Of a stretch of 64,000 nucleotides of DNA, positions 53,419 to 54,120 are shown one piece after another (position 1 is the stretch's first letter; the number at the start of each line of letters is the position of its first letter). Location: the NCBI GenBank assembly GCA_018261735.1, contig JAGTRM010000004.1:62001-126000 (forward strand), read 5' to 3'. The position numbers were made by a program, and so were the translations under genes. Origin of the DNA: Pseudomonadota bacterium (GTDB lineage Bacteria > Pseudomonadota > Gammaproteobacteria > Burkholderiales > Chitinibacteraceae). Under the pieces are notes generated by a model, which was not told the origin of the DNA, made no database searches, and saw nothing but the letters and a program-made list of their open reading frames with translations.

Positions 53419-54006
53419 TTAACGGTATTTTCTGATCAGACCCACCATCACGCCATAAATTTCCAGTCCTTCGCGGGGACGGATCGGGGCGTATTCGGCG
53501 TTTTCTGGCTGCAGCAGGAAACCAAGTTTATCTTTGGCCAAGGTCTTGAGTGTGTATTCGCCATCGACGATGGCAATGACCTTGTCGCCCAGATTCGCGG
53601 CATGGCGCTTTTCCACGACGGCAATATCGCCGTCATGAATCCCCGCTTCAATCATCGAATCGCCCTTGACCCGGACAAGTACCGTGGTGGAAGGGCGAGG
53701 GATCAGGTATTCATCGACGGTGAGCGCATCGCTCATCGCATCGTTGGCTGCGGCGGGCAGGCCAGCGGGTACCGGAAAATCGGCGAGTTCGCGCTCGAAG
53801 AAGCGCTTGGTCGGAGCCAGGCGCCGATCGGGCGTCATCTCGATATAGCCAGCCAGGGTCAGGCGCTTTACCAGGGCGGAGACGGCCGATTTTGAAGCCA
53901 TGCCGAGCATTTCCCCGATCACGGCGTAGGAAGGCAAGCTGCGGTATTGGGAGAAATAATCCTGCAACTTGCCGAGGTATTCGTTATCGCGGTTCGGGTT
54001 GCCCAT
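53419..54006 (-). CDS. LexA-family self-cleaving repressor
   Basis: A 195-residue protein: N-terminal winged helix (about 8-68; LQDYFSQYRSLPSYAVIGEM, SKSAVSALVKRLTLAGYIEM) and C-terminal S24 peptidase domain with Ser117 (KGDSMIEAGIHDGD) and Lys154 (VDGEYTLKTL). The likely self-cleavage site is Ala81-Gly82 (VPAGLP). It should repress its own gene and SOS genes until RecA triggers cleavage. The HTH is not the E. coli type, and two GAAC-N4-GTTC palindromes precede it. Start ATG 54006 has GGAG five bases away. Could be an SOS LexA or a paralogue. Confidence 0.85.
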   Translation of the reverse strand: MGNPNRDNEYLGKLQDYFSQYRSLPSYAVIGEMLGMASKSAVSALVKRLTLAGYIEMTPDRRLAPTKRFFERELADFPVPAGLPAAANDAMSDALTVDEYLIPRPSTTVLVRVKGDSMIEAGIHDGDIAVVEKRHAANLGDKVIAIVDGEYTLKTLAKDKLGFLLQPENAEYAPIRPREGLEIYGVMVGLIRKYR

Positions 54007-54019
54007 GGGTGCTCCAGTC

Positions 54020-54031
54020 GAACAATCGTTC
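54020..54031. promoter_or_regulatory. LexA-family operator, copy 1
   Basis: GAACAATCGTTC, a GAAC-N4-GTTC palindrome, 13 bases before the start codon. In context CGAACAATCGTTCA, very close to the Bacillus SOS box CGAAC-N4-GTTCG. Confidence 0.72.
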
Positions 54032-54043
54032 AGATAGACTAGT

Positions 54044-54055
54044 GAACGTCCGTTC
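54044..54055. promoter_or_regulatory. LexA-family operator, copy 2
   Basis: GAACGTCCGTTC, the second GAAC-N4-GTTC palindrome, with its centre 24 bp from that of copy 1. Confidence 0.72.
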
Positions 54056-54120
54056 TGCTGTCAAGCCTTTGCTTACAGCAGCGCATTGCTTGTTGGCAAC
54101 TGACTCCCGGGATTGGGTGT

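Follow-up and report, generated by a model that had tools for sequence, protein, structure and literature searches.

A noncanonical, Gallionella-type LexA preceded by GAAC-N4-GTTC boxes is the probable SOS master repressor of Chitinibacteraceae

The window analysed here, a 64-kb stretch of DNA from a Chitinibacteraceae genome, carries on its minus strand a gene for a LexA-like protein of 195 amino acids (Table 1). Pfam profile searches matched this protein to Peptidase_S24 (PF00717, 85.1 bits) and, just below the 23.7-bit cut-off, to the LexA DNA-binding domain (PF01726, 22.4 bits). The NCBIfam LexA equivalog TIGR00498 scored 102.4 bits against a cut-off of 110.95, which places the protein below the score of a canonical LexA. 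The S24 C-terminal domain was also a close match to UmuD. By reference to known LexA proteins, we take the winged helix-turn-helix to span residues ~4-65, the cleavage pair to be A81-G82, and the catalytic residues to be S117 and K154. The pair and the dyad are invariant in a 22-sequence alignment; the protein has the S24 domain, the Ala-Gly pair, and the Ser-Lys dyad of a LexA. The adjoining genes, ORFs that we read as queF- and cysG-like, are presumably chromosomal housekeeping genes.

The AlphaFold model of the protein (mean pLDDT 81, pTM 0.64, weak linker) comprises a three-helix winged helix with a two-strand wing and an S24 domain. In the PDB, the ten structures closest to it are all full-length LexA, with rmsd values of 5.8-11.4 indicating that the inter-domain arrangement is not reproduced. 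The pTM and the weak linker, like the TIGR00498 score, count against the interpretation reached below. As modelled, the N-terminus appears to be a LexA-type winged helix, with PF01726 just under its cut-off. The recognition helix region reads SKSAVSALVKRL, in comparison with SPNAAEEHLKAL in E. coli LexA, in agreement with a reading made from the DNA alone (the sequence-only reading), which had called the winged helix unlike that of E. coli. In the alignment, SKSAVSALVKRL is also unlike the canonical LexA of the same order and the Bacillota rows (e.g. SSSTVHGHL).

Table 1. Features at the lexA locus of the window, and examples of a protein family in related genomes
Feature	Position	Strand	Basis or remark
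lexA, noncanonical (Gallionella-type), 195 aa	53419..54006	-	ORF; PF00717; residues; model and LexA fold matches
Putative LexA box 2, GAACAATCGTTC; minus-strand reading GAACGATTGTTC	54020..54031		between inferred promoter and start codon; comparable box in relatives
Putative LexA box 1, GAACGTCCGTTC; minus-strand reading GAACGGACGTTC	54044..54055		between inferred -35 and -10; comparable box in relatives
Inferred -35, TTGACA	54059..54064	-	directly upstream of box 1; read from sequence
Inferred weak -10, TAGTCT	54036..54041	-	spacer 17; 3/6 consensus bases; inference only
~115-aa family, example	L228:1586-1927	+	
~115-aa family, example	L245:1143-1484	-	
~115-aa family, examples	L309-L335		

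Two perfect GAAC-N4-GTTC palindromes precede the gene, 24 bp apart from start to start and at distances of 13 and 37 bp from the ATG. Both had been noted in the sequence-only reading, whose interval, 53419-54055, does take in the gene and the two boxes. On the coding strand, we read the order TTGACA, box 1 inside a 17-bp spacer, TAGTCT, box 2, and ATG, in which the promoter elements are putative. TTGACA or a near form also stands before box 1 in the upstream sequences of many relatives. A consensus promoter scan returned nothing above threshold, which we count against the interpretation reached below. GAAC-N4-GTTC occurs at three sites in the window against 0.79 expected, and at least three were present in 6 of 100 shuffles; the third site (57187) lies inside a 518-aa ORF read as lysS. 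A pair of boxes within 60 bp was found in none of 400 first-order simulations of the window.

Among the best 80 of 350 relatives, the closest named proteins were those of Formivibrio citricus and a Formivibrio MAG (91% identity), followed by Silvimonas, Andreprevotia, Chitinilyticum, and Chitinibacter (75-82%) and then by Gallionella/Nitrosomonadales loci (54-58%). Bacillota LexAs were among the more distant of these 80 matches (32-38%). The ranking points to a Formivibrio-like organism within Chitinibacteraceae. A TIGR00498 search of 43 Chitinibacteraceae genomes, representing 11 genera, detected one full-length LexA-like match per genome, and the cut-off was passed in none of them (0/43); of 44 rows, a partial one (L141, a UmuD-like match) was left out of the lexA and recA counts. 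Allowing at most one mismatch per box, at least one box lies upstream of lexA in 43/43 genomes and two in 36/43; a single box is confined to one genus, where it is the rule in all seven genomes. A perfect box precedes recA in 43/43 genomes, against 0.08 expected from shuffles. Operator-like boxes were thus found before lexA itself and before recA in every family genome. The recA box of the window's own genome, GAACGATTGTTC, begins 53 bp before the start codon and is identical to lexA box 2.

The canonical operator, CTGT-N8-ACAG, precedes recA as a perfect site in 0/43 family genomes and with one mismatch in 3/43. The own genome contains 12 such sites, compared with 20 for the reversed control, and none of the 12 perfect sites lies on the contig of lexA (C30) or that of recA (C57). 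The genome, which is 93.8% complete, encodes three S24 proteins, namely this LexA and two UmuD, and no canonical LexA was found in it. GAAC-N4-GTTC operators in combination with a sole LexA, the arrangement of the Gallionella type, are what the genome presents. The sequence-only reading had proposed a search for a second lexA and had named a canonical one, together with CTGT-N8-ACAG sites elsewhere in the genome and no binding to the boxes, as the finding that would speak against it; the search gave no canonical lexA in the own genome and nothing above the TIGR00498 cut-off in the family, and the sites that do exist are those just described.

To describe the regulon, we scanned the own and related genomes for further boxes. 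Genome-wide, GAAC-N4-GTTC is not enriched in the own genome (67 sites versus 109 for the reversed control), a result that counts against our interpretation. Such a count is uninformative; what discriminates is whether a site lies upstream of a gene, and the tighter form GAACGAAYGTTC. We inspected 39 of the 67 sites and the recA site, and many sites without G at position 5 were left out, which makes the own regulon given here an incomplete one. Boxes were also located before recG (C1:66212), two umuDC/SRAP divergons (C16:74305 and C56:72159), and a C5-cytosine methyltransferase gene (C36:219234). Most of the other sites among the 39 lie inside ORFs and are likely due to chance. Each own umuD is followed by an ORF read as umuC, with a divergent SRAP gene across the common box; the SRAP family was identified by a profile match in a relative. 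The two umuD copies differ in open length, at 112 aa counted from the first listed start (L018:1528-1866) versus 149 aa (L016:1474-1923), and because of this difference the N-terminus of the C16 copy may be incomplete. The C5-cytosine DNA methyltransferase (L112:1536-3011, from contig C36) gave a weak N-terminal HTH match, and its box, identical to the recA box, lies 23 bp before the start.

Across the 43 family genomes, GAACGAAYGTTC occurs 212 times, in comparison with 63 for the reversed control. We picked 40 of these sites by hand from twelve genomes, excluding those of lexA and recA; one further site, on contig 39 of G016, was missed. Twenty-eight of them adjoin umuD/SRAP, recN, imuA, recG, dprA, a FAN1-like VRR nuclease gene, a SymE-like gene, or a gene of the ~115-aa family described below; since the neighbour queries were drawn from the same 40 loci, these neighbours are grouped rather than tested. 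recN was named by its SMC_N match, and SymE-like is a reading by eye, with no Pfam or NCBIfam match. The remaining 12 sites have no recognised SOS neighbour and count against our interpretation. One of the 12, L219, at a contig start, was scored as empty because its box lies off the fixed place used, and a SymE-like ORF is present there. The sequence-only reading had suggested a scan for the box before recA, uvrA, imuABC, or dnaE2; boxes stand before recA, umuDC, recN, imuA, and recG in the own or related genomes.

Several loci deserve separate description. SymE-like proteins of ~80 aa, as judged by eye, stand behind SOS boxes in several copies in one genome (L214, L215, L216 (G001 contig 7), L217, and L219), and the one copy searched had no Pfam, NCBIfam, or PHROG match. 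In G014, the ORF of an IS1595-type transposase (PF12762, PF12760; L208:528-1541, minus strand) begins at a GAACGTTCGTTC box, located at 1501. Two genomes, G031 and G032, hold 47 of the 212 GAACGAAYGTTC sites, and of the 24 places listed for them at least 15 are no more than ~85 bases away from a contig end, which points to a repeated element. The repeated contig-end elements of these genomes (L368-L373) carry a GAACGTTCGTTC box shortly before an ATG. The IS1595-type and contig-end elements are possibly SOS-regulated insertion sequences, and the G014 and G031/G032 elements may be of one kind. SOS control of an ISCR transposase is the topic of a 2026 paper (PMC13393415).

Besides an SOS system with changed specificity, the sequence-only reading had offered a paralogue of LexA with a private regulon. 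Such a paralogue would control a small set of genes beside a canonical LexA, as LexA2 does. Some bacteria carry two LexA types, and the LexA2 of Pseudomonas putida or Xanthomonas exemplifies such a second LexA; a score below the canonical TIGR00498 cut-off would also suit a protein of this kind. The coexistence with canonical LexA that characterizes a LexA2-type second LexA was found neither in the own genome nor in the family genomes. A private paralogue is at variance with the absence of a canonical LexA from the own genome and of any match above cut-off from 42 relatives, and with boxes that reach recA in 43/43 genomes and umuDC, recN, imuA, and recG in the own or related genomes; we regard it as very improbable. 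Alternatively, the protein could be an S24 repressor derived from a phage or mobile element, with the boxes serving its own promoter only. This would account for an S24 C-terminal domain close to UmuD and would fit the box-bearing mobile elements of relatives, but not the LexA-like winged-helix N-terminus with LexA structures as best fold matches, the single full-length copy in each family genome, the presumed housekeeping neighbours, or the boxes before recA in all 43 genomes. The lack of a canonical LexA and the recA boxes lead us to reject both alternatives, the second of which is scarcely credible.

We conclude that the product of the gene is very probably the only LexA of this Chitinibacteraceae genome and its SOS master repressor, a Gallionella/Nitrosomonadales-type protein of changed DNA specificity that appears to replace the canonical CTGT-N8-ACAG LexA family-wide. 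The changed specificity suggested by the sequence-only reading is supported by the boxes before SOS genes and by a canonical LexA not being found. In the proposed mechanism, a LexA dimer would bind GAAC-N4-GTTC, in the family commonly in a form near GAACGAAYGTTC. At the lexA promoter, box 1 would lie between the -35 and -10 elements and box 2 just downstream, resulting in autorepression, and the single boxes of recA, recG, and umuDC would play the same repressive role. Upon DNA damage, RecA filaments would be expected to trigger self-cleavage, in which the S117/K154 dyad would cut LexA between A81 and G82, and the cleavage would open the regulon.

A tree of 55 LexA rows, drawn with a midpoint root and with bootstrap values not fully settled, placed the Chitinibacteraceae LexA in one clade (100/99). 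A larger clade of 42 rows (100/99) comprises the Chitinibacteraceae proteins, the Gallionella-type LexA, and LexAs from ten further families of the order; canonical and Bacillota LexA fall outside it under the midpoint root. By this grouping, the window protein appears to belong to the Gallionella-type clade of noncanonical betaproteobacterial LexA. The tree also bears on the possibility that a Bacillus-type LexA and its operator were jointly taken over from Gram-positive bacteria. The palindrome equals the Bacillus LexA box, and Bacillota LexAs do appear among the distant matches given above. However, the Bacillota LexAs form their own group (97/90), which lies with canonical LexA and apart from the 100/99 clade under the midpoint root, and the recognition helix reads SKSAVSALV here versus SSSTVHGHL there. 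Such an acquisition seems exceedingly unlikely.

Replacement of the canonical repressor, as we propose for Chitinibacteraceae, can be viewed against the other families of the order. Among the named loci, the 160 bp upstream of the match contain a perfect GAAC box in 31/32 cases (L051 has none, and L049 was left out). For the comparison with other families, we assembled 30 loci, of which 10 full-length noncanonical and 8 canonical ones were counted and 12 UmuD-like or other S24 loci were left out. The full-length LexAs from ten other families are 48-65% identical to the window protein, with a perfect GAAC box in 9/10 and a perfect CTGT box in 0/10, whereas the eight canonical loci show a perfect CTGT box in 5/8 and a GAAC box in 0/8; one of the eight (L280) was not alignable. 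TIGR00498 matched in 272 of 300 genomes of the order and exceeded its cut-off in 163. Four families (f14, f20, f37, and f43) contain both LexA types, in different genomes, a distribution compatible with exchange or replacement inside families. In genomes outside Chitinibacteraceae, recA has a perfect GAAC box upstream in only 3/10 of those that carry this LexA type, and a CTGT box in 2/12 of those with the canonical type. These counts weigh against our interpretation, and because the boxes are so sparse we do not conclude that control of recA goes with the LexA type in those families.

Within Chitinibacteraceae, a family of ~115-aa proteins (Table 1) was present once each in 27/43 genomes and in 8/11 genera, and was absent from the window's own genus. 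A perfect SOS box lies within 200 bp upstream in 27/27 cases, against 0.07 expected, and at least two perfect boxes precede 18/27 of the genes. Eight of the 27 loci had been found through the box, which leaves 19/19 unselected for it, although many of the loci are closely related. In four of the 27 cases the match runs across a stop codon. Searches of Pfam, NCBIfam, PHROGs, and PDB sequences gave no match for the family. Outside Chitinibacteraceae, weak matches appeared in only two of 399 genomes of the order, with at most 11 candidates scored per genome, so that some may be missed. The conserved, boxed protein constitutes a concrete new candidate SOS gene, and an SOS checkpoint role for it is a guess. 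Tentatively, and with the odds in our judgement somewhat against it, the canonical lexA might have been lost in this betaproteobacterial branch, which NCBI assigns to Neisseriales, and the SOS response rebuilt on a Gallionella-type LexA that recruited lineage effectors, with the ~115-aa family as a possible checkpoint protein (e.g. in division arrest) alongside IS1595-type transposases with LexA-box promoters.

A LexA of this kind is reportedly known from work by Sanchez-Alberola et al. in 2015 (J Bacteriol), in which the LexA of Sideroxydans lithotrophicus is said to bind GAACGaaCGTTC, to replace the standard LexA, and to control a normal SOS set. The noncanonical LexA is reportedly conserved in Gallionella, with Nitrosomonadales and Methylophilales as further predicted carriers, and it is reported to be unrelated to the standard betaproteobacterial lexA and laterally spread. 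The reported publication of this LexA and motif in Betaproteobacteria reduces the surprise of our observation. What is added here is a noncanonical LexA system throughout Chitinibacteraceae, in all 43 genomes examined, although the 2015 study may already mention the family. No paper came up in literature searches that paired LexA with Chitinibacter, or with Gallionella and a binding motif. A LexA/GAAC-N4-GTTC system known from iron-oxidising and other betaproteobacteria accordingly extends to a further family. Since TIGR00498 stays under its cut-off in all 43 genomes, annotation by the canonical model or by CTGT boxes misses this LexA. lexA and SOS boxes are described as absent from Laribacter, Chromobacterium violaceum, and Neisseria, with loss in a common ancestor proposed, in the available part of that report, where Chitinibacteraceae do not come up (PMC3135505). 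These genera share the NCBI order Neisseriales with Chitinibacteraceae but lie outside the family, and the absence of lexA stated there merits rechecking with the present LexA type and motif.

In comparison with known systems, the window LexA shares with canonical proteobacterial LexA (TIGR00498, E. coli type) the S24 domain with its Ala-Gly and Ser-Lys residues, a winged-helix N-terminus, and the probable SOS role. It is unlike canonical LexA in its ~30-35% identity to the canonical loci of the same order, its recognition helix, its score below the TIGR00498 cut-off, and its operator, which is not CTGT-N8-ACAG. With the LexA of Bacillus subtilis (DinR) it has in common the operator half-site and spacing, whereas the Bacillota proteins occupy a separate branch and have a different recognition helix. 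The noncanonical LexA of Bacteroidetes likewise represents an SOS network with a changed repressor and motif; that protein has a lambda CI-like N-terminus and other motifs, in contrast to the LexA-like winged helix of the window protein (PMC8565304). The Sideroxydans/Gallionella LexA is alike in protein clade (54-58% identity; 100/99), in the GAAC-N4-GTTC box, and in having boxes before lexA. The two differ in taxonomic family, in the recognition helix (SKSAVSALV here and SKSWVKAIL in Gallionella), in the second lexA box, which is usually perfect in Chitinibacteraceae and usually GCAC...GTTC-like in Gallionella loci, and in the extra putative regulon members of Chitinibacteraceae.
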